From Rhodoferax sp. (GTDB taxonomy: Bacteria > Pseudomonadota > Gammaproteobacteria > Burkholderiales > Burkholderiaceae_C), in contig NZ_JAMPYG010000001.1 of NCBI RefSeq assembly GCF_023700745.1, positions 186,001 through 250,000 of the forward strand: a stretch of 64,000 nt of DNA, read 5' to 3'. Of this stretch, positions 1,275 through 44,355 are shown piece by piece. Below the pieces are notes generated by a model, which did not search any database, had not been told where the DNA came from, and saw nothing but the letters and a program-made list of their open reading frames with translations. The position numbers were made by a program, and so were the translations under genes. Each line of letters opens with the position of its first letter. Position 1 is the stretch's first letter.

Positions 1275-1339
1275 GTGGGAGCGGCGCCCTCGCCGCGAAT
1301 GCCCCCAAACAGCCTTCGGCCCGAGGGCGGGCCTCCTAC
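1275..1339. repeat. REP-like inverted pair, locus 1
   Basis: Two REP-like units face each other between ycaO and pgeF. 1275-1298 on the plus strand is GTGGGA, stem GCGGCG, loop CCCT, stem CGCCGC, GA. 1316-1339 on the minus strand is GTAGGA, stem GGCCCG, loop CCCT, stem CGGGCC, GA. Each can fold alone. The head-loop-tail plan is shared while the stem sequence differs. Confidence 0.8.
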
Positions 1340-1357
1340 AACTGCAGGGCCTTTTAG

Positions 1358-2098
1358 ATGCTGACGCCTGACTGGCCTGCGCCCGACGGCGTCCATGCGA
1401 TTTGCACCACGCGCATGGGCGGTGTGTCGGATGCGCCCTATGACAGCCTGAACTTGGGCGACCACGTCGGTGACGACCCCGTCCATGTGGCCGCCAACCG
1501 GGTCATCTTGCAAGAGGCCATTGGCGCACGCCCGGTATTCCTGACCCAGGTCCACGGCCTTCAGGTGGTGTCACTGGATGCCTCCACACCGGACGGCACC
1601 GTGGCAGACGCCTGCGTGACCGACCAGTCTGGCGTGGCCTGCACCGTGATGGTGGCCGACTGCCTGCCGGTGTTGTTCAGCACCGCCGATGGTCACCGGG
1701 TGGCTGCGGCTCACGCCGGCTGGCGCGGCTTGGCCGGGCAGGGTGGGATTGGTATTCTGGAGGCGACGGTTAAACGGATGCAGGGCAATGAGCTTCTGGC
1801 CTGGCTTGGTCCGTGTATTGGCCCGCAGGCGTTCGAGGTGGGAGATGAAGTGCGCGCAGCCTTCAGCACCAACGAGCCACTGGCGGCCGACTGCTTTAAA
1901 CCGCTGCTCCCTGGTAAATGGCTGGCGGACCTGGCCGCCCTGGCGCGATTGCGACTGCGTGCTCTGGGCGTCAGCCAGATTCACGGCAACGACAGCAGTC
2001 CGTCCTGGTGCACAGTTGGCAATGCGTCATGTTTCTTTTCCTACCGGCGCGACCGGGTCACCGGCCGCTTCTGCGCCAGCGTCTGGCGCGAGGGCTGA
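1358..2098 (+). CDS. pgeF: Peptidoglycan editing factor / multicopper-like purine phosphorylase (YfiH, DUF152)
   Basis: A 246-residue YfiH/PgeF protein. Family members have been described as polyphenol oxidases, as purine nucleoside phosphorylases and as enzymes that keep non-canonical residues out of the peptidoglycan stem peptide. The metal-binding residues are visible: His in QVHGLQVV, Cys in VADCLPVLF and His in AAHAGWRGL. The N-terminal TTRMGGVS motif and the C-terminal CTVGNASCFFSYRRD are also typical. The ATG at 1358 gives the usual family length. The 3' end overlaps the small membrane protein gene on the other strand by 72 bases. Confidence 0.88.
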   Translation: MLTPDWPAPDGVHAICTTRMGGVSDAPYDSLNLGDHVGDDPVHVAANRVILQEAIGARPVFLTQVHGLQVVSLDASTPDGTVADACVTDQSGVACTVMVADCLPVLFSTADGHRVAAAHAGWRGLAGQGGIGILEATVKRMQGNELLAWLGPCIGPQAFEVGDEVRAAFSTNEPLAADCFKPLLPGKWLADLAALARLRLRALGVSQIHGNDSSPSWCTVGNASCFFSYRRDRVTGRFCASVWREG

Positions 2099-2314
2099 GG
2101 TGGCCTGTGCGGCACGGAGTTCTGCTTCTTCCCGCGCCTTGATGGCACGCCGGCGTGCCGGAGTTCCCATCACATACAACACCAATACCAGGGGCAGCAC
2201 ACCATACAAAACAAAGGTGAAGATGCCGCCGAGCAGTGTGCCTGCAGTATGGGTGGCTTCGGCCACAGCCATGAGAATGGCCACATAGAGCCAGGCAATT
2301 GCAACGATGTACAT
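2027..2314 (-). CDS. Small two-TM membrane protein, function unknown
   Basis: A 95-residue protein starting MYIVAIAWLYVAILMAVAEA. It has two hydrophobic helices, at about residues 3-18 and 27-48, followed by a charged tail (ARRRAIKAREEAEL) and an Ala/Pro-rich end. The frame is open further upstream, but the first helix begins right at this ATG, and the upstream residues look like non-coding translation running into the phaC start. No clear Shine-Dalgarno precedes it. It is divergent from phaC and converges with pgeF with a 72-base overlap. I do not recognise a named family. Confidence 0.6.
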   Translation of the reverse strand: MYIVAIAWLYVAILMAVAEATHTAGTLLGGIFTFVLYGVLPLVLVLYVMGTPARRRAIKAREEAELRAAQATSALAPDAGAEAAGDPVAPVGKET

Positions 2315-2368
2315 GGTGAAGAGGGTATTTATTGACGAAAATCGGGGTATGTCAGGATTTCGAAGGAC

Positions 2369-2397
2369 TTGACCTAAGATACTATCGAAATTATTTT
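2369..2397 (+). promoter_or_regulatory. Candidate sigma-70 promoter for phaC
   Basis: TTGACC (2369-2374) and TATTTT (2392-2397) are separated by 17 bases. They lie about 27 bases upstream of the phaC ATG, in the AT-rich gap between divergent genes. Sequence-based guess only. Confidence 0.4.
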
Positions 2398-2423
2398 TTG
2401 ACCACAACAAAATAGGGATACGC

Positions 2424-4148
2424 ATGAACGAAAACGCTTCGGAAGTTTGGCTGCAATCGGCACAGAATCTACAGAAATCCATGGCCGAAAGCTTGAGCAA
2501 AGCATTTGAGTCGTTTCAGAACATGGACCTCGGCGAGGCCAGTACCAAACTCCTGGCTCCCACGGTCAAAGCGCCCAACATCAAATTTTCGGCCGAAAAA
2601 TTGCAACAACTGCAACAGCAGTTTCTGGCCGACGCCGCTGAATTGTGGGCCAACAGCGCCCAGGGCAAGCACCAACTCGCTGACCGCCGCTTTGCCGACG
2701 AAGCTTGGGCTGCCAATCCCACAGCCGCCTTTTCGGCGGCTGCGTATTTGCTCAACGCCAAAACGCTCAGCCAAATGGCAGAAGCGGTAGAGACCGATGC
2801 CAAAACCCGTGCCCGAATCCGCTTCGCTGTGGAACAGATCACCGCGGCCTCGGCCCCCAGCAATTTCATGGCCCTCAACGCCGAAGCGCAGAAAAAAGCC
2901 ATCGAGACCCAGGGCCAGAGCATTGCCAAGGGTATCCAGAACCTGTTGCACGACATGCAGCAAGGCCATGTGTCGATGACCGACGAGAGTCTTTTCGAAG
3001 TCGGTAAAAACGTCGCCACTACCGAAGGTGCGGTGGTCTTTGAGAACGAGCTGTTCCAACTCATTGAGTACAAACCGCTGACCGAAACCGTCTTTGAAAA
3101 GCCGTTCCTGTTGTTTCCCCCGTCGATCAACAAGTTTTACATCCTTGATCTGCAGCCAGAAAACTCACTGATCCGTTACGCCGTGGCCCAAGGTCACCGT
3201 ACCTTTGTCGTGAGCTGGCGCAATCCCGATGCCTCGCTGGCCAAAGCCAGCTGGGACGACTACATCGAAAAAGCGGTCATCAAGGCCATCCAGGTCACGC
3301 AGGACATCACGGGCGCCAAAACCATCAATACGCTGGGTTTTTGCGTCGGCGGCACCATGATGGGCAGTGCCCTGGCGGTACTGGCAGCGCGCGGCGAAAA
3401 GCCGGTGGCCAGCGCCACCTTCCTCACCTCCATGCTCGACTTCGCCGACACTGGCGTGCTCGACGTCTTCATTGACGAAGGCTTTGTCAAATACCGTGAA
3501 CAGGAAATGGGCAAGGGCGGCCTCATGAAGGGCAAGGACCTGGCCATGACCTTCAGCTTCCTGCGCCCCAATGACCTGGTCTGGAACTATGTGGTGGGCA
3601 ACTACCTCAAGGGCGAAACGCCGCCACCGTTCGACCTGCTCTACTGGAACAGCGACTCCACCAACCTGCCAGGCCCGTTCTACGCATGGTACCTGCGCAA
3701 CACCTACCTCGAAAACAACCTCACCAAACCCGGCGCGGCCACCGTCTGCGGTGAAAAGATTGACCTCAATCTGGTTGACATGCCGGTCTACATCTACGGC
3801 TCACGCGAAGATCACATCGTGCCCATCGGTGGTGCCTATGCTTCCACTCAATATCTGCCGGGAAAAAAACGCTTTGTCATGGGCGCCTCTGGCCACATTG
3901 CCGGTGTCATCAACCCACCGGCCAAGGGCAAGCGCAGTCACTGGATCCGCGAAGACGGCAAGTTGCCCAAATCGGTTGATCAGTGGATCGCCGGCGCAAC
4001 CGAGCACAAGGGCAGTTGGTGGACCGACTGGTCCAACTGGCTGGCCGCCCAGGCGGGCAAAGAAATCGCTGCGCCCAAGACCTATGGCAAAGGCAAGTAC
4101 AAGGCCATCGAGCCCGCGCCAGGCCGCTACGTCAAGGCCAAGGCTTAA
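2424..4148 (+). CDS. phaC: Class I poly(3-hydroxyalkanoate) synthase
   Basis: PhaC polymerises (R)-3-hydroxyacyl-CoA, mainly 3-hydroxybutyryl-CoA, on the surface of cytoplasmic PHA granules. The 574-residue length fits class I. The lipase-box-like GFCVGG places the nucleophile at Cys307. Asp463 in REDHIVP and His491 in SGHIAGVINPP complete the triad. The N-terminal PhaC domain (about 60-260) precedes the alpha/beta hydrolase core. An AGGGA site stands just before the ATG at 2424. It is first in phaC-phaA-phaB, 38 bases before phaA. Confidence 0.96.
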   Translation: MNENASEVWLQSAQNLQKSMAESLSKAFESFQNMDLGEASTKLLAPTVKAPNIKFSAEKLQQLQQQFLADAAELWANSAQGKHQLADRRFADEAWAANPTAAFSAAAYLLNAKTLSQMAEAVETDAKTRARIRFAVEQITAASAPSNFMALNAEAQKKAIETQGQSIAKGIQNLLHDMQQGHVSMTDESLFEVGKNVATTEGAVVFENELFQLIEYKPLTETVFEKPFLLFPPSINKFYILDLQPENSLIRYAVAQGHRTFVVSWRNPDASLAKASWDDYIEKAVIKAIQVTQDITGAKTINTLGFCVGGTMMGSALAVLAARGEKPVASATFLTSMLDFADTGVLDVFIDEGFVKYREQEMGKGGLMKGKDLAMTFSFLRPNDLVWNYVVGNYLKGETPPPFDLLYWNSDSTNLPGPFYAWYLRNTYLENNLTKPGAATVCGEKIDLNLVDMPVYIYGSREDHIVPIGGAYASTQYLPGKKRFVMGASGHIAGVINPPAKGKRSHWIREDGKLPKSVDQWIAGATEHKGSWWTDWSNWLAAQAGKEIAAPKTYGKGKYKAIEPAPGRYVKAKA

Positions 4149-4186
4149 TTTTCATCCCATTTTTTAACTAGGACTCAGGAGACATC

Positions 4187-5365
4187 ATGGAAGAGATCGT
4201 TATCGTTGCAGCAGCCCGTACGGCCGTTGGCAAATTTGGTGGTTCATTGGCCAAAGTTGCAGCCCCCGACCTGGGTGCCATCGTCATCAAGGCCCTGCTC
4301 GAGCGCACTGGCGTCAGCACCGACCAGATCGGTGAAGTCATCATGGGTCAGGTTCTAGCCGCAGGTGCCGGCCAGAACCCGGCCCGCCAAGCCATGCTCA
4401 AAGCCGGCATTGCCAAAGAAACGCCAGCCCTCACCATCAACGCCGTTTGCGGCTCTGGTTTGAAGGCCGTCATGCTGGCAGCCCAGTCCATCGCCTTTGG
4501 CGACAGTGAAATCGTCATTGCCGGTGGCCAGGAAAACATGAGCGCCTCGCCGCACGTTCTCATGGGCAGCCGCGACGGCCAGCGCATGGGCGACTGGAAA
4601 ATGGTTGACACCATGATTAACGACGGCTTGTGGGACGTCTACAACAAATACCACATGGGCATCACCGCTGAAAACGTCGCCAAAGCCCAAGGCATCACCC
4701 GCGAAATGCAGGACACCCTGGCTTTGGCCAGCCAGCAAAAAGCGGCTGCCGCCCAGGCGGCTGGCAAATTCAAGGACGAAATCGTCCCTGTTGTCATCCC
4801 CCAGAAAAAAGGCGACCCGCTGGTGTTTGACGCCGACGAATTCATCAACAAGAAAACCAATGCCGAAGGCCTCGCCGGTCTGCGCCCCGCCTTTGACAAA
4901 GCCGGTAGCGTCACCGCTGGCAATGCCTCCGGCATCAATGACGGCGCTGCTGCCGTCATGGTCATGAAAGCCAGCAAGGCGGCTGCCCTGGGCCTCAAAC
5001 CCATGGCCACCATCAAGAGCTTTGGTACCACCGGTCTGGACCCCGCCATCATGGGCATGGGCCCGGTCTCTGCCTCGCGCAAGGCGCTGGCCCGTGCTGG
5101 CTGGAACGTGGCTGACGTCGACCTGTTCGAATTGAACGAGGCCTTTGCCGCCCAAGCCTGCGCTGTCAATCAGGAGCTCGCTGTGGACACCGCCAAAGTC
5201 AACGTCAACGGTGGCGCTATTGCCTTGGGACACCCGATTGGTGCATCCGGTTGCCGCATTTTGGTCACCCTGCTGCACGAAATGCAGCGCCGTGATGCCC
5301 AAAAGGGTCTGGCCGCGCTGTGCATTGGCGGCGGCATGGGGGTTTCCCTCTGCCTGGAGCGTTGA
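4187..5365 (+). CDS. phaA: Acetyl-CoA acetyltransferase (beta-ketothiolase)
   Basis: Condenses two acetyl-CoA to acetoacetyl-CoA, the first step of PHB synthesis. This 392-residue thiolase has the acyl-accepting Cys88 in [11 protein letters not shown], His349 in [10 protein letters not shown] and the proton-shuttling Cys379 in CIGGGMG. The C-terminal NEAFAAQ motif is present. A strong CAGGAGA ribosome site precedes the ATG. It lies between phaC and phaB on the same strand, so its role in PHB supply is well supported, although related thiolases also act in fatty acid metabolism. Confidence 0.95.
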
Positions 5366-5464
5366 TTTAACCTTGATAATTCAAAAGCTTGTTGCTAGGC
5401 ATTTTTTAAATTTGCCAACTACTCGTTTTAATCAGCATTTGTGTTCGCAAAGAGGAGTAATTTC

Positions 5465-6202
5465 ATGAGTCAAAAAGTAGCTTACGTCACCGGCGGTATG
5501 GGTGGCATCGGTACCGCCATCTGCCAGCGCCTGAGTAAAGAAGGCTTCAAGGTGATTGCCGGATGCGGCCCCACTCGTGATTACGGCAAGTGGCTGGCCG
5601 AACAGGCAGCACTGGGCTTCACGTTCTACGCCTCGGCGGGTAACGTCGGCAACTGGAATTCCACTGTGGAGGCATTCACCAAAGCCAAGGCCGAGCACGG
5701 CAGTATCGACGTGTTGATCAACAACGCCGGCATTACCCGTGACCGCATGTTCGTCAAAATGACGCGCGAAGACTGGGATGCCGTGATCGAAACCAACCTC
5801 AACTCCATGTTCAATGTGACCAAGCAAGTGGTTGGCGACATGGTTGAAAATGGCTGGGGCCGTATCATCAACATCAGCAGCGTGAATGGCGTTAAAGGTC
5901 AGGCCGGTCAGACCAACTACTCGGCTGCCAAAGCCGGTATGCACGGTTTCTCCATGGCTTTGGCGCAAGAGTTGGCAACCAAGGGGGTCACTGTCAATAC
6001 CGTGAGTCCCGGCTACATTGGCACTGATATGGTCAAGGCCATCCGCCAGGAAGTGCTTGACAAGATCATTGCCACAGTGCCGGTCAAACGTCTGGGCGAA
6101 CCCTCCGAAATTGCTTCCATCATTGCCTGGCTGGCGTCTGATGAAGGTGGCTATGCCACCGGTGCCGAGTTCTCGGTCAACGGTGGCCTGCACATGGGTT
6201 AA
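5465..6202 (+). CDS. phaB: Acetoacetyl-CoA reductase (NADPH, SDR family)
   Basis: Reduces acetoacetyl-CoA to (R)-3-hydroxybutyryl-CoA for PhaC. It is a 245-residue short-chain dehydrogenase with the cofactor loop TGGMGGIG at the N terminus, NNAGITRD, the Ser in INISSVNG, and catalytic Tyr152 and Lys156 in NYSAAKAG. The start at 5465 (MSQKVAYVTGG) is chosen because AGAGGAG stands just upstream; the longer frame adds only eight unsupported residues. A gap of about 100 bases separates it from phaA, so it may have extra transcription control. Confidence 0.94.
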   Translation: MSQKVAYVTGGMGGIGTAICQRLSKEGFKVIAGCGPTRDYGKWLAEQAALGFTFYASAGNVGNWNSTVEAFTKAKAEHGSIDVLINNAGITRDRMFVKMTREDWDAVIETNLNSMFNVTKQVVGDMVENGWGRIINISSVNGVKGQAGQTNYSAAKAGMHGFSMALAQELATKGVTVNTVSPGYIGTDMVKAIRQEVLDKIIATVPVKRLGEPSEIASIIAWLASDEGGYATGAEFSVNGGLHMG

Positions 6203-6301
6203 AGCGGTCGTGTTGTAGCTGTCCGGCATCGGGGCATCATTCCTTATATAGTCTTGCTTGGGCTTTTAAGGGGTGAATATTGTCTCGTACACTTAAAGCC
6301 T

Positions 6302-6937
6302 ATGGCACGCTACAACACCCCTTTTGAAATCCACGTGCATGGCCAGGTGAGCCTGCGTGGTGATGTGACTTTTGAGAATATCCAGGATGCGCTGAAGCCG
6401 CTCTGGAAATACGCCGGAGAGCGCTCGCTGGCCGACGCGGCGGGCAGTTTTTACGAAGATGAACCCGGCATTCGGTTTGACTCAGCCGAGCATTTGCTGC
6501 AAATGTGCTGGACCGTCGAAGGTGATGACGACTTTCGCCAGGCACTGGACGAGATGTGCATGAACCTGAATGAAGTTGCCTTGACCGGTGCCGCCATCGA
6601 GGTCACGTTTTACGACACCGAGTTCGAAGATGAGGACGAAGAGGCCGACCCCGAAGCCGAGTCGCGTGACGATTTTATCATGCTGTTTGTCGGTCCTGAT
6701 CCAGCGGCCATCATGCAGGTGCAACGCGATTTGCTGGTGCAGGACGTGATCAGTCTGATGGAACGCCACTTTGATGGTGCCGAACTGGGCGGTGTCGTGG
6801 CGGCTGTTGATCAGTTGTTCAGTCAGCGTTTCAATGAATTGGTGAGTTCATTGCAACTGGGTAAACCACCCAGAGGATCAGGTGGCTCTGGTGGTATGGG
6901 CCACGGCGGTGGCCGCAAGCCCAGGCATTTGCATTAA
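6302..6937 (+). CDS. Conserved hypothetical protein downstream of phaB
   Basis: A 211-residue protein beginning MARYNTPFEIHVHGQVSL; the match to an uncharacterised betaproteobacterial family (possibly DUF6806) is from memory. The middle is rich in Asp/Glu (about residues 108-120) and the tail is Gly-rich, then basic and His-rich (GGMGHGGGRKPRHLH). There is no signal peptide or membrane helix. It sits where phaR follows phaCAB in some relatives but lacks the PhaR N-terminal signature. No good ribosome site was seen. Its stop overlaps the convergent dehydrogenase gene by four bases. Confidence 0.7.
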   Translation: MARYNTPFEIHVHGQVSLRGDVTFENIQDALKPLWKYAGERSLADAAGSFYEDEPGIRFDSAEHLLQMCWTVEGDDDFRQALDEMCMNLNEVALTGAAIEVTFYDTEFEDEDEEADPEAESRDDFIMLFVGPDPAAIMQVQRDLLVQDVISLMERHFDGAELGGVVAAVDQLFSQRFNELVSSLQLGKPPRGSGGSGGMGHGGGRKPRHLH

Positions 6938-7941: not shown

Positions 7942-8003
7942 GACACGGATTGTGCCTTGGCGAGCGGCACTCTCTGATAGAGATAACTTTAAAAATACGG
8001 ACT

Positions 8004-8261: not shown

Positions 8262-8312
8262 GGTGGGTGCTCTGGATGAGTTAAGACAGGGTGGCATAGG
8301 GAGTTGAATGTT

Positions 8313-8990: not shown

Positions 8991-9021
8991 GATGGCTCCT
9001 GGCATGGCTGGGTGATGAAAG

Positions 9022-9060: not shown

Positions 9061-9080
9061 TAAAGAAAGCCGCAAGTGGT

Positions 9081-10061: not shown

Positions 10062-10139
10062 GAGGCCCTGGAATTGTGAGGGGCCCACCTCGGGCCGATG
10101 GTTATTTGGATTCAATCGCGGCGAGGGCGCCGCTCCCAC
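10058..10139. repeat. REP-like units, locus 2
   Basis: A truncated head GTAGGAGGCCC covers the asparaginase stop (10058-10068). A degenerate unit with a GGCCCA/CGGGCC stem is at 10076-10098 on the plus strand. A perfect GCGGCG/CGCCGC unit is at 10116-10139 on the minus strand. The group fills most of the gap between the convergent asparaginase and adk genes. Confidence 0.7.
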
Positions 10140-14920: not shown

Positions 14921-15689
14921 GGCCCAGCTTGAGGCCACGGTTTTCGAACTTGGTCAGCGGCCGGTAATGCGGCTTGGGGGCGTAGCCCAATAATTCAGGG
15001 TGTTTTTCGGAGGCGGTGTTTTTCAGCAGCGGCTCGGCATTCAATACGTCCAGTATCTGTTCGGCGTAAGGCTGCCAGTCGGTGGCGCAGTGCAGGTAAG
15101 CGCCCACCTTGAGGCGCGCCGCCAGTTTGGCAATCAAAGGGGCCTGGATCAGGCGGCGCTTGTTGTGTTTCTTCTTGTGCCAGGGGTCGGGGAAAAAAAT
15201 GTGCGCGCCAGCCAGGCTTTGCTGCGGCAGCATGTGGTCAATCACCTCGACCGCGTCGTGTGCGCAGATGCGGATGTTGCGCAGGCGCTGCGCGCCAATG
15301 CGCTTGAGCAACGCCCCTACACCGGGTTCGTGCACCTCGCAGCACAAAAAATTGGTGCCCGGCAGCAGCTCGGCAATGTGGGCCGTGGCCTCGCCCATGC
15401 CAAAACCGATCTCCAGCACCGTCGGCCGGCTGCTGTTTGCTGGGTCACCCGCGGCTACAGCATCGGCAAAGGCCGCCGCAAAATCAAGCGGGGCTGGCTG
15501 GTAGGGCAGCAGGAATGTCGGCCCCAGCTCGTCAAACGCCTTGGTCTGGCCGCTGGTGGTGCGGCCGGCGCGGCGGACGAAGCTCTTGATGGTCTTGGGG
15601 AATGCCACATCGGCCAGCGACTGCGGGCGGATGCGCGGCGTGCGAGCCTGCTCGGGCGGTTTTTTGGGGGTATTTGGGGTATCGTTCAC
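14886..15689 (-). CDS. trmB: tRNA (guanine-N7-)-methyltransferase
   Basis: Methylates G46 of the tRNA variable loop using S-adenosylmethionine. The SAM-binding core is [11 protein letters not shown], followed by [26 protein letters not shown] and [12 protein letters not shown], all diagnostic. The N-terminal tail is basic and Pro-rich ([17 protein letters not shown]). The GTG at 15689 overlaps the gluQ stop as GTGA, which favours it; an alternative GTG lies at 15716. Downstream it overlaps the pseudouridine synthase gene. Confidence 0.9.
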
Positions 15690-16669
15690 GGGGGCAGATT
15701 GTAGAGATTGCGCCACTGTGCCACCCAGTTGGGCAATGCATCGGCAAGTGCGTGCTGCCCGGTCAGTCCCAGCACAGCCGCGGCGTGATTCAGCGCAGTT
15801 AGCGGGTGTGCGGTGTCAAGCGCCTGGGCACCGTTTTGTTTACTGAGCTTTTCGCCGTTGGGCCCCAGCACCAGCGGGGTGTGCAGGTAGCGCGGGGTAG
15901 GCCGGTGCAGGGCGCGTTGCAGCAAAATCTGGCGCGCCGTGTTGTCGGCCAGGTCCTGGCCCCGCACGACATCGGTGATGCCTTGCCCAGCGTCGTCGAC
16001 CACCACCGCCAACTGGTAGGAAAAACAGCCGTCGGCACGCTTCAGGATGAAATCACCCACTTCGGCAGCCACATCCTGCGACTGCTCTCCCAGGCGACGA
16101 TCTTGCCAATGCAGTGATGGCTGGGTGTCTGTTCTGAAGCGCCAGGCACGCGCTGGCTTGCCATGCAGCCCATGGCGGCAGGTGCCGGGATAAACCAGCT
16201 CGCCATGGCGCGGTTTGACCTGGCCGCTGTGCTGTAGCGCTAGTTGAATATCACGGCGACTGCAGCCGCAGGGGTAGGCGTAGCCGCTGGCAATCAGTTG
16301 CGCCAGCACCAGCTGGTAGCGCTGCGAGCGTCGGGATTGGTAGCATGGCGGCTGGTCGCTGTGCAGACCGCAGGCGGCCAGTTGTTGCAAGATGGTCTGA
16401 TCCATGCCGGGCAGGCAGCGCGTACTGTCCACGTCTTCGATGCGCACCAGCCATTGACCGCCATGGGCACGCGCATCAAGCCAACTGGCCAGCGCCGCGA
16501 CCAGTGAACCCGCGTGCAGCGGTCCGGTGGGCGAGGGCGCAAAACGGCCAATGTAGGTTGTTGAATCAGGGTCCGTCGCGGCGGGGGCGCCGCTCCCACA
16601 GGGGGCTGCTCCCACCGGGGTAAGGGGCTGCATTTGTGGGAGGCCCGCCTCGGGCCGATGGTTGTTCAT
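15686..16669 (-). CDS. gluQ: Glutamyl-Q tRNA(Asp) synthetase
   Basis: Attaches glutamate to queuosine in tRNA(Asp). It is a class I synthetase paralogue lacking the anticodon domain, shown by the HIGH-like [18 protein letters not shown], the four-Cys zinc site region (YPCGCSRRD and CRHG) and the KMSKS-like [10 protein letters not shown]. The conserved protein begins near residue 38. The residues before it (for example [18 protein letters not shown]) are translated from REP-like repeats, and no start codon exists between the repeats and the core. The start is therefore uncertain; ATG 16669 or 16633 are candidates, neither with a good ribosome site. Confidence 0.88.
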
Positions 16670-16701
16670 GGGGTCAATCGCGGCGAAGGCGCCGCTCCCA
16701 C
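16576..16701. repeat. REP-like units at the gluQ start, locus 3
   Basis: Three units: 16576-16599 minus (GCGGCG/CGCCGC, loop CCCC), 16636-16658 plus (GGCCCG/CGGGCC, loop CCT) and 16678-16701 minus (GCGGCG/CGCCGC, loop CCTT). They cover the start region of gluQ and the gap before the oxidoreductase gene. Confidence 0.8.
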
Positions 16702-20250: not shown

Positions 20251-20313
20251 TCGGCCCGAGGACGGGCCTCCCACAAATTGCGAACCCCTGTGGGAGCGGC
20301 GCCCTCGCCGCGA
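20251..20313. repeat. REP-like inverted pair, locus 4
   Basis: 20251-20274 minus (GGCCCG/CGGGCC, loop TCCT) and 20290-20313 plus (GCGGCG/CGCCGC, loop CCCT), lying 30 bases before the rlmB start. The heads face inward, the reverse of locus 1. Confidence 0.8.
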
Positions 20314-21127: not shown

Positions 21128-21151
21128 TCGCGGCGAGGGCGCCGCTCCCAC
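21128..21151 (-). repeat. REP-like unit, locus 5
   Basis: A single perfect unit (GTGGGA, GCGGCG, CCCT, CGCCGC, GA on the minus strand) between the convergent ends of rlmB and rfbC. It could act as a bidirectional transcription end. Confidence 0.78.
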
Positions 21152-22629: not shown

Positions 22630-23538
22630 TTATTTGCCCAGCACCTCTGCCAGCATGCGGTTTACCCCCATTTGCCATGGCGGCAGGGTCAAACCAAAGG
22701 TGGTTTGCAGCTTGCGGGTGTCCAGGCGTGAGTTCAGCGGCCGCTTGGCCGGTGTCGGAAAGGCGCTGGTGGGTACCGGTTTGACCTCGGTCGCCTTGAT
22801 CTTCACATCAGGCAGGATGTCCTGGGCCTGTTCGATGACGTGTTTGGCATAGTCGAACCAGGTGGTACTGCCATCGGCACCGAGGTGGTAAATGCCGGCC
22901 AGGGCTTCGGACGATGCATCTTGACGGCAGACCTGGCGGATGGCGTGGGCAGTGATGTCGGCAATCAGCTCGGCACCCGTGGGCGCACCCCATTGGTCGT
23001 TGATGACCGTGAGCAACTCGCGCTCCTGCGCCAGGCGCAACATGGTCTTTGCAAAGTTGCCACCACGTGCGGCGTAAACCCAGCTGGTGCGGAAAATCAG
23101 ATGGCGTGGATTGTTGCCAACAATCAATGCTTCGCCTTCCAGCTTGCTGCTGCCATAAACATTCAGCGGACCGGTGGCGTCGCCTTCGCTCCAGGGCAAC
23201 ATGCCGCTGCCGTCAAAGACGTAGTCGGTGCTGTAGTGCACCAGCCAGGCACCGAGCTTGGCTGCCTCTGCGGCCAGCACCCCGGGTGCCATCGCGTTGA
23301 GGGTTCGGGCCAGTTCGGGTTCACCCTCAGCCTTATCCACCGCGGTGTGGGCCGCCGCATTGACGATGACATCAGGCTGGATGGCCCGCACGGTGGTGGC
23401 AAGATCGTCCAGGCGACTGATGTCACCACAGAAATCGGTGTTGTGGCGATCGAGTGCAAAAAGTTCACCCAAAGGCGCCAGGCTGCGTTGCAACTCCCAG
23501 CCGACCTGGCCGTTTTTACCGAGGAGCAGGATTTTCAT
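22630..23538 (-). CDS. rfbD: dTDP-4-dehydrorhamnose reductase
   Basis: Final NAD(P)H-dependent reduction giving dTDP-L-rhamnose. The 302-residue SDR-type protein starts [20 protein letters not shown] at 23538 and has [13 protein letters not shown], then the YxxxK equivalent in [10 protein letters not shown]. The ATG overlaps the rfbB stop as ATGA; the longer frame into rfbB is rejected. A 19-base gap separates it from rfbA. Confidence 0.95.
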
Positions 23539-24614
23539 GCGTACTGCTTTTGCACCCACTCGCGGTAGGCGCCGCTTTGCACATGCGCCACCCAGTCCGG
23601 GTTGTCCAGGTACCACTGCACAGTTTTGCGGATGCCGGACTCAAACGTCTCGGCCGGTTTCCAGCCCAGTTCGGCTTCGAGTTTGCGCGCGTCGATGGCG
23701 TAGCGGCGGTCGTGGCCGGGGCGGTCGGTCACATAGGTGATCTGGTCTTTGTAAGGCTTGCCGTCGGCGCGCGGGCGCAGCTCGTCGAGCAGGGCGCAAA
23801 CGGTGTGCACAATGTCGATGTTGGCCTTTTCGTTCCAGCCGCCGACGTTGTAGACCTCGCCCAGGCGGCCGGCTTCGAGCACACGGCGGATCGCGCTGCA
23901 GTGGTCCTTGACGTACAGCCAGTCGCGTATTTGCTGGCCGTCGCCATACACCGGCAGCGCCTTGCCAGCCAGCGCGTTGACAATCATCAGCGGGATCAAC
24001 TTTTCGGGGAAATGGTAGGGGCCGTAGTTGTTGGAGCAGTTGGTGGTCAGCACCGGCAGGCCATAGGTGTGGTGCCAGGCACGCACCAGGTGGTCGGAAG
24101 CGGCTTTGCTGGCCGAATACGGGCTGTTGGGTTCTATGTGGCTGGTCTCGGTAAAGGCCGGATCGTCCTTTTTAAGCGACCCATAGACCTCGTCGGTGGA
24201 GACATGCAGAAACCGGAACCTGTTTTTTGTAGGAGCGACGCCCCCGTCGCGATTTTCCTGGGGCAGGTTCTGCCAATAGCCGCGCACCGACTCCAGCAGG
24301 TTGAAGGTGCCCACAATATTGGTCTGGATGAACTCACCGGGGCCGTGGATGGAGCGGTCAACATGGCTCTCGGCGGCAAAATTGACCACGGCACGCGGCT
24401 GGTACCGGGCCAGCAGCTGGCTGACCAGTGCCACATCGCCAATGTCGCCCTGTACCAGCGTGTGGCGGGTGTCGCCTTGCAGGCTTTGCAGGGTTTCGGG
24501 GTTGCCGGCGTAGGTGAGTTTGTCGAGATTGATGACCGGCTCGTCGCTCTGCGCTAGCCAATCGAGGACGAAATTGGCGCCAATAAAACCAGCGCCGCCT
24601 GTGACCAGGATCAT
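23535..24614 (-). CDS. rfbB: dTDP-glucose 4,6-dehydratase
   Basis: Converts dTDP-glucose to dTDP-4-keto-6-deoxyglucose. The 359-residue enzyme has the NAD motif [22 protein letters not shown] with the catalytic Thr/Asp/Glu set, and [12 protein letters not shown] with Tyr/Lys. It is first in the rfbBDAC operon. An oddity is residues 121-129 (NRDGGVAPT), encoded by a REP-like palindrome (24229-24252) between the RGYWQNL helix and the RFLHVSTDE strand, a place where other members vary in length. The enzyme is probably still active. Confidence 0.95.
24229..24252 (+). repeat. REP-like unit inside rfbB, locus 6
   Basis: GTAGGA, stem GCGACG, loop CCCC, stem CGTCGC, GA. The stem differs from the common types at matching positions on both arms, so pairing is kept. 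It lies in frame within rfbB, antisense to the coding direction. Confidence 0.75.
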
Positions 24615-24704: not shown

Positions 24705-24768
24705 GTGGGAGCGGCGCCCTCGCCGCGATTGCCCCCAACAGCCATCGGCCAGAGGGCAGGCCGCCTAG
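24705..24768. repeat. REP-like inverted pair, locus 7
   Basis: 24705-24728 plus is a perfect GCGGCG/CGCCGC unit. 24745-24768 minus is a decayed GGCCCG-type unit with one stem mismatch. They lie in the 187-base gap between the ABC-F gene and rfbB, downstream of the ABC-F stop and upstream of the rfbB start. Confidence 0.75.
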
Positions 24769-26803: not shown

Positions 26804-26883
26804 TCGACCCGAGGGCGGGCCTCCTACAAAGGCAAGGCGCCCTGTGGGAGCTCCACCCTGTAGGAGCGGCGCCCTCGCCGCGA
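26804..26883. repeat. REP-like units, locus 8
   Basis: 26804-26827 minus (GGCCCG-type, one mismatch), a truncated head at 26844-26849, and 26860-26883 plus (GTAGGA, GCGGCG, CCCT, CGCCGC, GA). They fill the gap between prmB and the ABC-F gene. The short head may mark a partly deleted unit. Confidence 0.75.
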
Positions 26884-32317: not shown

Positions 32318-32415
32318 ATAGGAGACCCGCCTTGGGCCGATGGGATTCATTCAATCGCGGCGAGGGCACCGCTCCCGCAGGGCGATATCTTCTGGGAGGA
32401 CCGCCCCCGGGCCGA
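32318..32415. repeat. REP-like units, locus 9
   Basis: Three units: 32318-32340 plus (decayed GGCCCG type), 32355-32378 minus (GCGGCG/CACCGC, one mismatch) and 32392-32415 plus (GGACCG/CGGGCC, loop CCCC). They fill the gap between murI and dapC and look older than the perfect copies elsewhere. Confidence 0.72.
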
Positions 32416-35778: not shown

Positions 35779-35820
35779 TGATGACTCCAAAAAACTAGCT
35801 AGACGATGATCCCGTCACGA

Positions 35821-35877
35821 CGAACGAAGTGAAACAGTCCATGCAGCTGGAAGTCATGGACTGTTTCACTTCGTTCG
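35821..35877. repeat. Long perfect inverted repeat between nfeD and the stomatin gene
   Basis: Two 23-base arms, 35821-35843 and 35855-35877, are exact reverse complements around an 11-base loop. The arm core GAACGAAGTGAAACAGTCC resembles the widespread CATTGCGA..GAAGCAATCC type of dispersed intergenic repeat known from many bacteria. On the plus strand a T run follows (about 35887-35894). It could end or stabilise the nfeD transcript, or be a small mobile hairpin. Confidence 0.7.
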
Positions 35878-35905
35878 CAACGACAGCCTTTTTTTCACTT
35901 TAAAT

Positions 35906-38749: not shown

Positions 38750-38756
38750 GGGGCAT

Positions 38757-38852
38757 TCGCGGCGAGGGCGCCGCTCCCATAGAGTGCATATCCCACAGAG
38801 TGCAGATCTCGCAGGGTGCGGGTATCTTGTAGGAGGCCCGCCCTCGGGCCGA
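38757..38852. repeat. REP-like units, locus 10
   Basis: 38757-38780 minus (GCGGCG/CGCCGC, loop CCCT, head ATGGGA) and 38829-38852 plus (GTAGGA, GGCCCG, CCCT, CGGGCC, GA), with about 48 bases between them. They lie between the decarboxylase stop and the putA control region. Confidence 0.78.
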
Positions 38853-38872
38853 AGGCTGTCCAGGGTCCAATG

Positions 38873-38952
38873 TGCAACCCAAGGGTTATCCCTGATTTTA
38901 ATGGGTTGTACCTTTAATAGAATTGGTGCAACCAATCCTAAAATGAGTTGCA
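38873..38952. promoter_or_regulatory. Candidate PutA operator cluster
   Basis: GTTGCA-like sites, on either strand, occur at 38873-38878 (TGCAAC), 38905-38910 (GTTGTA), 38927-38932 (TGCAAC) and 38947-38952 (GTTGCA). The last three are spaced 20-22 bases apart. The ribbon-helix-helix domain of PutA is known to bind GTTGCA in enterobacteria. The final site ends three bases before the putA ATG, where a ribosome site would be expected. Confidence 0.55.
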
Positions 38953-38955
38953 CCC

Positions 38956-41900
38956 ATGGCTACAGTCACACTTGGCATCAAGGTCGATGAATCTCTCCGA
39001 ACACGCATCAAGGAAGCCGCCAGCGTGCAGGGAAAAACTCCGCACTGGCTCATCAAGCAGGCGGTCATGCAGTACGTGGAGAGCGTCGAGCGGGGCCCGT
39101 TGCCAGCGCTTGCAGGTTTAGGTGCAACCCACCCTGCTGATGCCCCTGAGCCGGATGAAACCGACGAGCCGACCACACCCGTCGCAACCCCATTTTCTGC
39201 GCCGCAACCCTTTCTGGACTGGGCACAAAACGTGCTGCCGCAGACCGACATGCGCGCCGCCATCACCGCTGCCTGGCACCGCCCCGAACCCGAGTGTTTG
39301 CCGATGCTGGTGCAACTGGCCCATGTGTCCGACCCGGTCCAGCGCAAAGCCATAGAAACCGTGGCGGCCCGGCTGGTGGAAGGCCTGCGCAGCAACAAGG
39401 ACAGCGGCGGGGTGGAGGCGCTGGTGCAGGAGTTTTCACTCTCCAGCCAGGAAGGCGTGGCGCTGATGTGCATGGCCGAAGCGCTGTTGCGCATCCCGGA
39501 CAACGCCACCCGCGACGCGCTGATTCGCGACAAGATCAGCCATGGCGACTGGCATTCGCATCTGGGCAACTCACCCTCGATGTTCGTCAATGCTGCCGTC
39601 TGGGGCCTGATGTTGACTGGCAAACTCACCGCCACCGCCAGCGAAAAAAGCATGGCCAGCGCACTGACGCGTCTGATCGGCAAGGGTGGCGAGCCGTTGA
39701 TCCGCCAGGGTGTGCACCGTGCCATGAAGCTCATGGGCGAGCAATTTGTCACCGGACAAACCATCTCCGAAGCGCTGGCCAACAGCCGACCGCTGGAGAA
39801 AAAGGGCTTTCGCTACTCCTACGACATGTTGGGCGAAGCGGCCACCACCGAGCTGGACGCCGAGCGCTATGTGGCGTCCTACGAGCAGTCGATTCGCGCC
39901 ATTGGCATGGCCTCGAACGGCCGCGGTATTTTTGAAGGGCCGGGTATTTCGGTCAAACTCTCCGCCTTGCATACACGCTACAGCCGCGCCCAGCGCGACC
40001 GCGTCATGGGCGAATTGCTGCCGCGCCTGACCAAACTGGCCCTGCTGGCGCGCCAGTACGACATTGCCATCAACATCGACGCTGAAGAATCCGACCGGCT
40101 GGAGCTGTCGCTGGACCTGCTGGAAAGCCTGTGTTTTGACCCCCGGCTCAAAGGCTGGAACGGCATTGGCTTTGTGGTGCAGGCTTACCTCAAGCGTTGC
40201 CCCTTCGTGATCGACCATGTGATCGATCTGGCCCGGCGTAGCGGCCATCGGCTGATGATCCGGCTGGTCAAGGGTGCGTATTGGGATGCCGAAATCAAAC
40301 GTGCGCAACTCGATGGCCTGGACGGCTATCCGGTGTACACGCGCAAGGCCCATACCGACGTGGCTTACCTGGCCTGCGCGCGTAAATTGCTGGCCGTTCC
40401 GGATGCGGTGTACCCGCAATTTGCCACCCACAATGCGCAGACCGTGGCCTCCATCTACCAAATGGCAGGTCAAAACTATTACGCCGGTCAGTACGAGTTC
40501 CAGTGCCTGCACGGCATGGGCGAGCCGCTCTACGAACAGGTGACAGGTACCGTGGCAAACGGCAAACTGGGCCGCCCGTGCCGCATTTATGCGCCGGTGG
40601 GAACGCATGAGACGCTGCTTGCCTACCTGGTGCGCCGATTGCTGGAAAACGGTTCCAACTCTTCCTTTGTCAACCGCATTGGCGACCCCAAGATCAAAGT
40701 CGATGAACTGGTGGCCGACCCGGTGGGTGAAGCGCAGGCCATCGAGGCGCAGACCGGCCAGCTTGGCGCACCGCATCCCAAAATTGCCCTGCCACGGCAG
40801 ATGTTTGCCGAGTTGGGTGCCCAGTCACGGCTGAACTCTTCCGGTCTGAACCTGGCCAATGAACAGCAACTGGCCTCACTGGCTGCTGGCTTGCTGCGCA
40901 GCACGCAAACCAGCTACGCCGCTGCGGCCACCGTGGCTGAGGTGGCGCCCGTGAATCCGCAAACGGCTGAGACTGACGGCTGGCAAGCCGTGCTCAACCC
41001 GGCAGACACGCGCGATGTGGTGGGCTGGGTGCGCCCGGCCAGCGCCAGCGAGGTGAACCTGGCAGCGAGCCGGGCAGACCATGCCACGCAAATCTGGCAG
41101 GTCACACCGCCGCAGGAGCGCGCCGCCTGTCTGAAGCGTGCGGCTGACTTGCTTGCGCAACGCATGCAAAGCATTCTGGGCCTGATCGTGCGCGAGGCGG
41201 GCAAATCTTTGCCCAACGCGGTGTCCGAAGTGCGCGAGGCAGTGGACTTCCTGCGTTATTACGCGGCCCAGGCTGAAGCCACATTTGACAACCAGACGCA
41301 TCGGCCCCTGGGCGTGGTACTGTGCATCAGTCCGTGGAATTTTCCGCTGGCCATTTTTGCCGGTCAGGTGGCGGCAGCGCTGGCCAGCGGCAACTGCGTG
41401 CTGGCCAAACCGGCCGAACAAACGCCGCTGGTGGCTGATGTGATGGTCAAGCTGCTGCACGAAGCCGGCGTGCCACAGGATGCGGTGCAACTGGTGCCCG
41501 GCACCGGCGATGTGGTGGGCGCCGCGCTGGTGGCGCACCCGCTGGTGGCGGGTGTGATGTTTACCGGCTCGACCGAGGTGGCGCGCCTGATTGCGCAAAC
41601 TCTGTCACAGCGTCTGAGCCTGCAGGGCCGCAACATTCCGCTGATTGCCGAGACCGGTGGCCAGAATGCCATGGTGGTCGATTCATCGGCGCTGGCCGAG
41701 CAGGTGGTGGGCGACGTGTTGTCGTCGGCCTTTGATTCGGCCGGCCAGCGCTGCTCGGCCTTGCGCCTGTTGTGCGTTCAGGAAGACGTGGCCGAGCGGG
41801 TGCTGGACATGATCAAACAGGCCATGCGCGAGTGGGTGATGGGTAACCCGGACCGCATGCACACCGACATCGGACCAGTGATCAACGAAGACGCACGGGT

Positions 41901-43041
41901 ACAAATTGAACGGCATATTGCCCGCATGCAGGCCGACGGCCAGGTCGTGACACGCATGGCGCGCGACGAAAGCGCCGGTCAAGGCCATTTTGTGATGCCC
42001 ACGTTGATTGAAATTGACGGTATTGAACGCCTGCAGCGCGAGGTGTTCGGCCCGGTACTGCATGTGCTGCGCTACCAGCGTGACGAGCTTGACAAGGTGC
42101 TCGATGCCATCAACGCCACCGGCTACGGCCTGACCTTTGGCGTGCACAGCCGCATTGATGAAACCATTGCCCAGGTGACCAAAAAGGTGCTGGCTGGCAA
42201 TATTTACGTGAACCGCAACGTCATCGGGGCCGTGGTGGGCGTGCAGCCGTTTGGCGGCATGGGCCTGTCTGGCACCGGACCCAAGGCGGGTGGACCGCTG
42301 TATTTGTACCGTTTGTTGCAGGCCGACGAGGCGCAGAACAACCCGGCGCTCACCGCACTGGCAGACTCGCCCGCTTGCCGCCTGCTGGTCCCCGCAAGCA
42401 CCGAGCGCCAACAAGCCGAGCCCGCCAGCCTGCAAGCCCTGGCGTTTTTATTGGAAAGCCTGCAGGGACTGGCCCTGGTGGCGCCTTTGGGCGAGTTAGG
42501 CCATTTTGAAGCGGTGCAAGCTACCGCCGCCTGTGAAGCCTACCTGGCCTGCACCGTGCTGGGTCAATCTTTCCGGCTGCCAGGTCCGACGGGTGAATCA
42601 AACCGTTACCAACTGCAGCCGCGCGGCGCGGTCTGGGTCGTCCCGCGCACCGCGCTTGGATTTGTCAATCAATTGGCGGCGACCCTGGCCAGCGGCAACA
42701 CCTGCTGGCTTGAGACCCCGGCCGCGGACAGCGCTGTGGCGCGTTTGCTCAACACACTGCCTGCTGAGGTCAAATCGTTTGTGCGGTTATGCAGCGCCGG
42801 GCAATTGCACGGTGAAGTCCATTTGAGTGCCTTGTTGTTCGAAGGTGATGGCGATGCCTTGCAGGCCCTGTCGCTTCAGGTGGCGCAACGGGTAGGCGCC
42901 ATCGTGCGCATTGAAAGCCTGTCATCCGCGCAATTGGCTGCGGGTGCAAACTATGATCTGAGTGCCTTGATGCACGAACAAAGCATCAGTACCAACACGG
43001 CGGCGGCCGGCGGTAATGCGCAGCTGATGACCATGGGCTGA
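38956..43041 (+). CDS. putA: Trifunctional proline dehydrogenase / P5C dehydrogenase / regulator
   Basis: Oxidises proline to glutamate in two steps and represses its own gene. This 1361-residue protein has an N-terminal ribbon-helix-helix domain (about 1-45, TVTLGIKVDESLRTRIKEAA), a flavin-dependent proline dehydrogenase barrel (about 230-590, ending in DEAESDRLELS- and RLVKGAYWDAE-type motifs), an aldehyde dehydrogenase domain with Glu899 and Cys933 (SAGQRCSAL), and a C-terminal domain that matches the long PutA form. A Pro/Thr-rich linker (about 55-75) follows the DNA-binding domain. No ribosome site is seen, as operator-like sites occupy that place. Confidence 0.96.
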   Translation: MATVTLGIKVDESLRTRIKEAASVQGKTPHWLIKQAVMQYVESVERGPLPALAGLGATHPADAPEPDETDEPTTPVATPFSAPQPFLDWAQNVLPQTDMRAAITAAWHRPEPECLPMLVQLAHVSDPVQRKAIETVAARLVEGLRSNKDSGGVEALVQEFSLSSQEGVALMCMAEALLRIPDNATRDALIRDKISHGDWHSHLGNSPSMFVNAAVWGLMLTGKLTATASEKSMASALTRLIGKGGEPLIRQGVHRAMKLMGEQFVTGQTISEALANSRPLEKKGFRYSYDMLGEAATTELDAERYVASYEQSIRAIGMASNGRGIFEGPGISVKLSALHTRYSRAQRDRVMGELLPRLTKLALLARQYDIAINIDAEESDRLELSLDLLESLCFDPRLKGWNGIGFVVQAYLKRCPFVIDHVIDLARRSGHRLMIRLVKGAYWDAEIKRAQLDGLDGYPVYTRKAHTDVAYLACARKLLAVPDAVYPQFATHNAQTVASIYQMAGQNYYAGQYEFQCLHGMGEPLYEQVTGTVANGKLGRPCRIYAPVGTHETLLAYLVRRLLENGSNSSFVNRIGDPKIKVDELVADPVGEAQAIEAQTGQLGAPHPKIALPRQMFAELGAQSRLNSSGLNLANEQQLASLAAGLLRSTQTSYAAAATVAEVAPVNPQTAETDGWQAVLNPADTRDVVGWVRPASASEVNLAASRADHATQIWQVTPPQERAACLKRAADLLAQRMQSILGLIVREAGKSLPNAVSEVREAVDFLRYYAAQAEATFDNQTHRPLGVVLCISPWNFPLAIFAGQVAAALASGNCVLAKPAEQTPLVADVMVKLLHEAGVPQDAVQLVPGTGDVVGAALVAHPLVAGVMFTGSTEVARLIAQTLSQRLSLQGRNIPLIAETGGQNAMVVDSSALAEQVVGDVLSSAFDSAGQRCSALRLLCVQEDVAERVLDMIKQAMREWVMGNPDRMHTDIGPVINEDARVQIERHIARMQADGQVVTRMARDESAGQGHFVMPTLIEIDGIERLQREVFGPVLHVLRYQRDELDKVLDAINATGYGLTFGVHSRIDETIAQVTKKVLAGNIYVNRNVIGAVVGVQPFGGMGLSGTGPKAGGPLYLYRLLQADEAQNNPALTALADSPACRLLVPASTERQQAEPASLQALAFLLESLQGLALVAPLGELGHFEAVQATAACEAYLACTVLGQSFRLPGPTGESNRYQLQPRGAVWVVPRTALGFVNQLAATLASGNTCWLETPAADSAVARLLNTLPAEVKSFVRLCSAGQLHGEVHLSALLFEGDGDALQALSLQVAQRVGAIVRIESLSSAQLAAGANYDLSALMHEQSISTNTAAAGGNAQLMTMG

Positions 43042-43064
43042 TTTTTATAAAAAAGGAGACATTG

Positions 43065-43088
43065 ATGACTTTCAAGACACCGCCATGA
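43065..43088 (+). other. Possible seven-codon upstream ORF
   Basis: AAGGAG at 43053-43058 is followed at correct spacing by ATG and seven sense codons (MTFKTPP), then TGA. The stop overlaps an ATG at 43085 that opens a longer frame into the binding protein gene. It may be a leader peptide or chance. Confidence 0.3.
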
Positions 43089-43144
43089 GGCATGGGTTTA
43101 ACCGCAAGCTGGCTCACAAACATTCACCTTTTCAGGAAACCCCT

Positions 43145-44278
43145 ATGAAACTTACCTCCACCCTTTTGCCCTTGATGGGCGCGCTGACCCTGGCCTTTGC
43201 CAGCCAGGCTTATGCCCAGGAACAAACCGTCGTGATCGGCCTGACCGGTCCCTTGTCGGGCTCCAACGCCTTTGCCGGCAAGGACAACGAGAACGGCGTG
43301 CGCCTGGCCGTTGATGACCTCAACAGCAAGAAGATCACGGTCGGCGGCAAAACGCTTAAATTTGTACTGCAATCCGAAGATGACCAATGCGACCCCAAAG
43401 CCGGTGTGCAGGTTGCGCAAAAATTTGTCGATGGCGGCGTCAAGTTCGTCATGGGCCCCTATTGCTCGGGTGTGGCGGTTCCGGCCTCGCGGATTTATAA
43501 CGAGGGTGGCGCCATGATGTCCACCGTTGGCACCAACCCCAAAGTCACCCTGGGTGGCTACAAAAATCTGTTTCGAATCATTGCCAGCGACAACCAGATT
43601 GGCACCGGCATGGCCAGCTATGCAGCCAATGTGCTGAAGGTCAAATCAGTGGCGGTGATTGACGACCGCACCGCTTTTGGCCAGGGCGTGGCTCAGGAGT
43701 TCACCAAGGAAGCCAAGCGCTTGGGACTCAATGTCGTCGGACAGGAGTTCACCACGGACAAGGCGACGGACTTCACCTCCATCCTGACCACCCTCAAGGC
43801 CAAAAATCCGGACGCCATTTTCTTTGGCGGCTACGCCCCTCAAGCTGCACCCATGACACGGCAGATGAAGCAACTCGCTGTCAAAGCCAAGTTGCTCGGC
43901 GGTGACACCCTGTGCAGCCCCGAAATGGGCAAGCTCGCGGGCGATGCAGTCAATGACGTGGTGTTCTGTGCGCAGGGCGGCTCCATCCTGGAAAAGACGG
44001 CCGCTGGCCCGGCTTTCAAAGCCAAGTACAAGCAACGTTACAACCAGGATGCCGACGTGTATGCCGCGCCGTTTTATGACCAGACCATGTTCATCGGGGA
44101 GTCGATCCAGAAAGCCGGCTCACTGGACCCGGACAAAGTGGGCGCCGTCATCTACAAAGGCAGTTACAAGGGCATCATGGGCACCTATGCCTATGACGAC
44201 AAAGGCAATATGAAGCAGGCCCCGATCACGGTCTACACCTTCAAAAACGCAACTTTGGTGCCGCTGGCAAGTTATTGA
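43145..44278 (+). CDS. Branched-chain amino acid ABC transporter substrate-binding protein
   Basis: A 377-residue periplasmic binding protein of the LivJ/LivK type. The signal peptide (MKLTSTLLPLMGALTLAFAS, cleaved after QAYA) is followed by VVIGLTGPLSGSNAFAGKDNENGVRLAVDDLN. The signal peptide and AGGAAA before 43145 select this start over an ATG at 43085. The permease and ATPase genes are not adjacent. Its place directly after putA suggests amino acid uptake linked to catabolism, but the ligand is unknown. Confidence 0.9.
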   Translation: MKLTSTLLPLMGALTLAFASQAYAQEQTVVIGLTGPLSGSNAFAGKDNENGVRLAVDDLNSKKITVGGKTLKFVLQSEDDQCDPKAGVQVAQKFVDGGVKFVMGPYCSGVAVPASRIYNEGGAMMSTVGTNPKVTLGGYKNLFRIIASDNQIGTGMASYAANVLKVKSVAVIDDRTAFGQGVAQEFTKEAKRLGLNVVGQEFTTDKATDFTSILTTLKAKNPDAIFFGGYAPQAAPMTRQMKQLAVKAKLLGGDTLCSPEMGKLAGDAVNDVVFCAQGGSILEKTAAGPAFKAKYKQRYNQDADVYAAPFYDQTMFIGESIQKAGSLDPDKVGAVIYKGSYKGIMGTYAYDDKGNMKQAPITVYTFKNATLVPLASY

Positions 44279-44290
44279 ACGGGCTCCTCT

Positions 44291-44355
44291 GTAGGAGTCG
44301 CGCCCTCGCGAAGATGGCTGTTTGAATTCATTCGCGGCGAAGGCCCCGCTCCCAC
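44291..44355. repeat. REP-like units, locus 11
   Basis: 44291-44312 plus has head GTAGGA and a distinct stem TCGCG/CGCGA with loop CCCT. 44332-44355 minus is GCGGCG/CCCCGC type with one mismatch. They lie between the convergent binding protein gene and amrS. No further unit is seen to the right in this window. Confidence 0.7.

Follow-up and report, generated by a model that had tools for sequence, protein, structure and literature searches.

The 64,000-nucleotide stretch analysed here (the window) comprises positions 186,001 to 250,000 of contig NZ_JAMPYG010000001.1, designated C1, in a Rhodoferax sp. genome of 3.21 Mb (GCF_023700745.1; 35 contigs, 94.6% complete). Dispersed through it are 19 copies, at 11 loci, of a short hairpin-forming repeat when one head mismatch or one broken pair is allowed (Table 1), a number in keeping with the roughly 20 units at 11 loci proposed in an initial annotation of this DNA. 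Each unit consists of a GTRGGA head, a 6-bp stem, a loop that is mostly CCCT, the complementary arm and a terminal GA. The dominant stems are GCGGCG (type A) and GGCCCG (type B), with minor contributions from GTCGCG, a third type, and GCGACG, a single copy close to type A. Three of these stems had been listed correctly at the outset, but the supposed TCGCG type has the true register GTCGCG/CGCGAC, of which a clean copy lies at C20:38529 and another on contig C16. The GTRG tetranucleotide at the 5' foot of the short hairpin, its separation from the stem by two unpaired bases (GA) and the conserved motif opposite, here the GA tail, are features of repetitive extragenic palindromic (REP) sequences, as is the occurrence of many, mostly intergenic copies. 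By a crude gene caller 16 of the 19 window units lie between genes; the GCGACG unit at 24229 resides inside rfbB. A scan for unbroken stems gave 15 rows, 14 of them true units, and the row at 2563 was discarded as spurious. The window has no match in Rfam.

Across the genome, the type A pattern GTRGGAGCGGCGNNNNCGCCGCGA is found at 54 places against 2 for the reversed pattern (up to two mismatches), and the type B pattern GTRGGAGGCCCGNNNNCGGGCCGA at 27 places against 3 (up to three mismatches), while a covariance-model search returned 70 matches at E ≤ 0.1. The genomic stretches examined hold 85 listed units (54 A, 29 B and 2 others), one of which, a type B entry at C12:57516, is probably spurious. 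Units within 90 bp of one another obey a pairing rule: 30 of the 34 close pairs are inverted A/B pairs, 16 with heads outside and a spacing of 63-65 bp in every case, and 14 with heads inside and a spacing of 12-49 bp. The remaining four pairs comprise A with the third type, A/A, a direct B/B with an A unit in between, and a direct A/B; unpaired units are of type A in 21 of 23 cases. With A set against B, these pairs are not the symmetrical doublets, folding as one long hairpin, to which the term REPIN (REP doublet forming a hairpin) strictly applies. The coordinates of one locus on contig C17 are in error by 40 bp, an offset that leaves its pair spacing unaffected. The base before the head is T in all A and B units except one, and this exception, counted as GT, likewise ends in T; the preceding dinucleotide is CT in 37 and TT in 17 type A units, and TT in 25, CT in 3 and GT in 1 of type B. 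The units are also clustered, 41 of the 85 falling within about 105 kb, or 3% of the genome (19 in the window, 14 at C1:314-337 kb and 8 at C14:207-225 kb).

The stems vary in a concerted manner. Selected by head and GA tail only from RAYT loci (REP-associated tyrosine transposase genes and their flanks; see below), 110 distinct locus/stem units were reduced to 82 by the removal of identical strings, and in these 87.2% of stem cells pair compared to 60.3% after shuffling. Their covariation score (0.583 versus 0.163 for shuffled stems) was equalled in none of 500 shuffles and exceeds that of every slid version. Five of the six stem pairs vary on both sides, and the first G-C pair is near-invariant. 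The original proposition that the two arms change together is upheld by these figures.

A gene for a REP-associated tyrosine transposase (RAYT), a Y1 enzyme, is found in sister genome G227 with A and B units like those of the window on both of its flanks. The encoded protein, 150 residues long with DHLH, WQ and YIVANP motifs, belongs to group 3 (TnpA_REP subclass 2.5), described as comprising proteins of about 151 residues with DH[LF]H, WQ and YI[VI]ANP (PMC6006769). It scores 143.1 bits against the NCBIfam model REP_Tyr_transpos (cut-off 80), matches the solved Escherichia coli TnpA_REP structure 4er8 at 4.4e-9, and is identical to the RAYT of the metagenome-assembled genome Rhodoferax sp. 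Kmv23. Because this group-3 gene has both stem types on both sides, one enzyme lineage accounts for both. The supposition that the repeats are REPs of a RAYT system gains support from this Y1 gene lying among matching units, an arrangement seen in the sister genome but not in that of the window; likewise, where several RAYT lineages or a single enzyme had been envisaged, one lineage suffices for A and B, and other lineages also exist in the genus. Nine genes in 8 of 89 genus genomes reach at least 140 bits against the same model, and the other strong RAYTs whose flanks were read carry quite different REPs (e.g. GTAGGTCAGAATTTATTCTGAC and GTGGGGCAGGCTTCAGCCTGCC), stem types tracking RAYT relatedness between genomes. 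Genus RAYTs with unrelated REPs, including long E. coli-like ones, were observed at loci L071, L072, L232 and L066-L070. Units of the present family occur in 16 of the 89 genomes (E ≤ 0.001, stricter filters), most abundantly in G251 (71), the window's own genome (38), G227 (24), G246 (15) and G222 (13).

The sole Y1 gene over cut-offs in the window's own genome encodes 234 residues with NHFH and YIDLNP motifs. Its 1.5-kb flanks are free of units and its motifs are wrong for a cognate RAYT, a role for which it is ruled out. In the printed motif table its best fit is subclass 2.1 (group 1), which is listed there as lacking REPs (PMC6006769), and a relative more than 70% identical is found at 22 of 30 genus loci (L066-L095), itself counted. 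A RAYT remnant in this genome was also considered and rejected, as the search gave no more than two weak matches (E 0.014 and 0.33), neither with units in its vicinity.

The association extends well beyond the genus. Among the best 80 of at least 521 relatives of the G227 protein, with hosts that include Thiobacillus, Methylobacter, Thioalkalivibrio, Limnohabitans, Methyloversatilis, the Pseudomonas mendocina group, Desulfobulbaceae and others, paired GTRGGA units lie within 200 bp of the gene on both sides at 58 loci, downstream only at 8 and upstream only at 3. GTRGGA heads within this distance number 366 (356 in a second count), compared to 33, 18 and 23 occurrences of control words; 258 of the 366 begin a perfect hairpin, as do 1.4% of random 22-mers, and a GA tail ends 253 of these 258 paired units. 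RAYT loci in other genera also contain the same A/B pair, and in the Comamonadaceae a GCCCCG partner stays constant while the other is GCGGCG or GCGACG. When a perfect stem is demanded, as was done in these heterotypy counts, 274 of 319 adjacent inverted pairs are heterotypic, and the 70 loci with units divide into 43 heterotypic, 16 homotypic, 3 mixed and 8 without pairs. On a RAYT tree that rests on 149 columns and has many weak forks, the two states interchange 11 times, at least 7 of these on well-supported branches, versus 15.0 changes for shuffled labels. A rule whereby one partner would follow CT, the cleavage dinucleotide, and the other TT describes the window's own genome but does not hold more widely, since 29 RAYT loci give 7 CT/TT pairs against 4.7 expected and 14% of shuffles reach that value. 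Whatever the degree of RAYT identity, loop types are held in common more often than stem types, and the two stems of one locus share a loop at 0.78 against 0.667 (none of 2000 shuffles as high). The initial suggestion that the enzyme reads only head and loop is favoured by this sharing, but the GA tail, the near-invariant first G-C pair and the repetition of stem types among related RAYTs point to a reading that is not so limited.

The occurrence of many stem pairs under one head-loop-foot rule allows pairing within a hairpin to be separated from pairing between partners, a distinction that symmetrical pairs cannot provide. In 469 adjacent inverted pairs from the RAYT loci, for which (as in the covariation set) stem pairing was not required, within-hairpin pairing amounts to 92.9% and between-partner complementarity to 69.8%, and pairing within the hairpin is still 85.1% at places where the partners differ. 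By locus, within exceeds between in 50 of 68, equals it in 15 and falls below it in 3. What is conserved is the local hairpin and not the long foldback. This pattern agrees with printed assays of two group-3 enzymes, in which stem swaps were partly tolerated, mismatches and loop changes were not, and loop bases with an unbroken stem outweighed the letters of the stem (PMC8266576).

Taken together, the repeats very probably constitute a REP family of the GTAG-1 type, organised as bacterial interspersed mosaic elements (BIMEs), of the kind served by group-3 (subclass 2.5) RAYTs and copied as pairs, the host genome belonging to the same genus as Rhodoferax sp. Kmv23. What is copied would be the inverted pair of one type A and one type B REP, about 64 bp from head to head, with a small Y1 single-strand transposase recognising each REP as a local single-strand hairpin. 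For such an enzyme the letters of the stem would count for less than the GTRG(GA) head, the loop and the GA foot, and a stem mutation would impair copying until the opposite arm compensates; stems would thereby covary as they drift, and a pair's two arms, though copied together, would diverge. To judge from the sequences, cleavage and movement of the units would fall to a RAYT of the G227 type, and the copies in the window's genome may have been left by an enzyme since lost or lying in an assembly gap. RAYT loss is likely for some of the other unit-bearing genomes of the genus, which are mostly draft assemblies of the sort that repeats break.

Several observations weigh against this interpretation. 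Profile and similarity searches of the 94.6%-complete assembly detected no group-3 RAYT, and a strong RAYT match is confined to G227 and G213 among the eight genus genomes with at least 5 units, the G213 gene being flanked by other REPs. Eleven of the 80 RAYT loci lack a paired GTRGGA unit within 200 bp, and most of the tail, head and loop letters come from a biased sample, the loci having been chosen for their resemblance to a single RAYT. Closer RAYTs have stem types in common more often, and stems are accordingly not free. As regards the reality of the family itself, GTRGGA taken alone occurs in the window no more often than shuffling predicts (42 occurrences versus 42.9 expected); what stands out is GTRGGA together with its hairpin.

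Among other explanations, that the hairpins are ordinary intrinsic terminators or RNA-level structures retained for the host's benefit and never mobile can hardly be credited. Most window units are intergenic, often just past a stop codon, as terminators would be, but in the units printed the GA tail does not lead into a T run, pair spacing and sequence are fixed, one unit sits inside a coding gene, the sister genome has a transposase gene among identical units, and rfbB exemplifies insertion at a previously empty site. It is also very improbable that two RAYT lineages, one per stem type, produced the mixed pairs through chance insertion of neighbours. Stem types do differ between RAYT lineages, and hybrid BIMEs from two RAYTs have been printed for Stenotrophomonas (PMC2817692); against this stand the single G227 gene with both types on its flanks, the invariably narrow spacing of the heads-outside A/B pairs, and the same pair at the RAYT loci of other genera.

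A more substantial rival, although still an unlikely one, holds that heterotypy itself is selected, unlike stems avoiding a long foldback that would be cut by SbcCD or stall replication, as suggested in PMC3733652. Calculated with DNA energies, homotypic heads-outside pairs adopt one long hairpin with a mean of -35.1 kcal/mol and a local-hairpin value of 0.0 (27 pairs, 18 loci), whereas heterotypic ones fold far more weakly, at a mean of -20.9 kcal/mol (140 pairs, 40 loci), and the two window pairs that were folded keep both local hairpins in the best structure. The mean probability of the local hairpins nonetheless reaches 0.4 in only 9 of the 40 heterotypic loci and is lower in the other 31; in most of these loci, therefore, two hairpins are not favoured on thermodynamic grounds alone. 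Moreover, 16 of the 62 loci with pairs are homotypic and have kept their pairs, and a choice of partners for being unlike is countered by the stems of a locus differing at 2.06 of 6 places, less than the 2.46 of random unlike partners (1996 of 2000 shuffles as high). Tentatively, and at somewhat less than even odds, the heterotypic pair may be the form in which this RAYT clade operates, as opposed to a decayed symmetrical REPIN; the enzyme would need two separate local hairpins, recognised by head, loop and foot, and could dispense with the long foldback that has been proposed as the transposition intermediate of symmetrical REPINs. If so, the 11 switches between heterotypic and homotypic states on the RAYT tree would represent neutral stem drift under a local-hairpin rule, and the printed question of why heterodimers prevail would be answered.

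That question was raised in PMC3733652, which named REP heterodimers and noted of their prevalence that it "has no obvious explanation"; symmetrical pairs form the basis of the REPIN model (PMC3116915). As the set of RAYT loci separates pairing within hairpins from pairing between partners, the question can be put to the test in vitro using a single enzyme and two stems. The closest known relatives are the GTAG-1 (group 3, subclass 2.5) REPs of Pseudomonas and Xanthomonas, which have the same head and foot, GTGGGAGCGGGC...GCCCGCGA (PMC2817692, PMC3686654), two unpaired bases before the stem, inverted doublets and a small Y1 enzyme with DHLH/WQ/YIVANP, whereas the present units have other stems and mostly a CCCT loop. 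The dimers described for P. putida and P. entomophila are mostly homodimers (PMC3733652), in contrast to the heterotypic pairs found here, and subclass 2.5 has been described as mostly Xanthomonad and Pseudomonad (PMC6006769), whereas the hosts here are beta-proteobacteria. In E. coli BIME-2, two unlike REPs (Y and Z2) similarly alternate in orientation and both flank the single RAYT gene yafM (PMC2817692), but those units are long and bulged with a group-2 enzyme, while the stems here are short and unbroken and the enzyme is of group 3. The REPINs of P. fluorescens SBW25 share the inverted REP doublet with spacer as the copied unit and a cognate RAYT, but they are symmetrical and form one long hairpin (PMC3116915), whereas here the stems of the partners mismatch. 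Earlier publications already describe RAYT flanking, the Y/Z2 pairs, heterodimers and stems that covary beneath a GTRG head (PMC2817692, PMC3733652, PMC3686654), and a search of the open-licence PubMed Central literature for beta-proteobacterial RAYTs and asymmetric REPINs yielded nothing beyond the papers cited. Added here are the wider spread, the comparison of pairing within and between hairpins, ladders of 5' half-units and a 24-bp in-frame REP in rfbB.

The last of these is a single unit that contributes a net 24 bp, or 8 codons, relative to 15 relatives, with no duplicated target visible. The corresponding loop was extracted from 21 of 30 rfbB loci, the others not fitting the search pattern, and is 33 residues long in 15 and 41 residues, with the REP in the same place, in four (the window's genome, G253, G240 and G227). 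G242 and G250 carry other inserts in this loop, which looks like a tolerant site. The fourth stem pair of the rfbB REP is A-T in the window's genome and G253, G-T in G240 and A-C in G227; these one-armed states fit a passage between GCGGCG/CGCCGC and GCGACG/CGTCGC, and in a coding gene they may equally represent decay.

The ladders consist of an extra head 16 to 18 nucleotides directly 5' of the head of a unit, found in 19 of 54 type A and 7 of 29 type B units and corresponding to head plus left arm with no right arm; some further GTGGGA words in the region are such half-units, devoid of a hairpin of their own. The step is exactly 16 in 15 type A cases and mostly 18 in type B. The occurrence in B units refutes a restriction of ladders to type A, and slippage between the CCCT loop and a CCCT flank fits the A ladders but not those of B; slippage at the hairpin is offered as a guess. 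A head at -15 or -16 was found in only 6 of 621 units at the RAYT loci. Similar half-unit ladders were noticed in G251 (L188, near 220).

Table 1. Repeat units and associated features of the window (coordinates from its first nucleotide).
Feature	Coordinates	Strand	Basis
REP type A (GCGGCG/CCCT/CGCCGC)	1275..1298	+	unbroken-stem scan, genome-wide A search
REP type B (GGCCCG/CCCT/CGGGCC), partner of 1275, heads outside	1316..1339	-	unbroken-stem scan, B search
Probable decayed type B partner, insert within stem-loop	10058..10098	+	read by eye; end estimated
REP type A	10116..10139	-	unbroken-stem scan, A search
REP type A	16576..16599	-	unbroken-stem scan, A search; in first 31 codons of open reading frame 15686-16669 as called
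16-nt 5' half-unit of type A unit at 16576	16600..16615	-	half-unit count
REP type B, 3-nt loop	16636..16658	+	unbroken-stem scan
REP type A, partner of 16636	16678..16701	-	unbroken-stem scan, A search
REP type B, heads inside with 20290	20251..20274	-	unbroken-stem scan, B search
REP type A	20290..20313	+	unbroken-stem scan, A search
REP type A	21128..21151	-	unbroken-stem scan, A search
rfbB-like gene hosting REP at 24229	23535..24614	-	GDP_Man_Dehyd, E 3.8e-93
REP, GCGACG/CGTCGC stem, in frame within rfbB	24229..24252	+	unbroken-stem scan, relatives' comparison
REP type A	24705..24728	+	unbroken-stem scan, A search
Probable decayed type B partner	24745..24768	-	read by eye; coordinates estimated
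REP type B, one broken pair	26804..26827	-	B search, mismatch-tolerant scan
16-nt 5' half-unit of type A unit at 26860	26844..26859	+	half-unit count
REP type A	26860..26883	+	unbroken-stem scan, A search
REP type A, two mismatches	32355..32378	-	A search, mismatch-tolerant scan
REP type B, two mismatches	32392..32415	+	B search, mismatch-tolerant scan
REP type A, head ATGGGA	38757..38780	-	A search, mismatch-tolerant scan
16-nt 5' half-unit of type A unit at 38757	38781..38796	-	half-unit count
REP type B	38829..38852	+	unbroken-stem scan, B search
REP third type, GTCGCG stem, one broken pair	44291..44314	+	unbroken-stem and mismatch-tolerant scans
REP type A-like, one broken pair, partner of 44291	44332..44355	-	A search, mismatch-tolerant scan

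The type A unit at 16576 lies upstream of the tRNA-synt_1c domain of the reading frame that contains it and probably ahead of the true start. Elsewhere in the window, positions 35821-35877 hold a 23-bp perfect inverted repeat with an 11-nucleotide loop, followed by a T run and single in the genome (up to two mismatches), which is probably a terminator.

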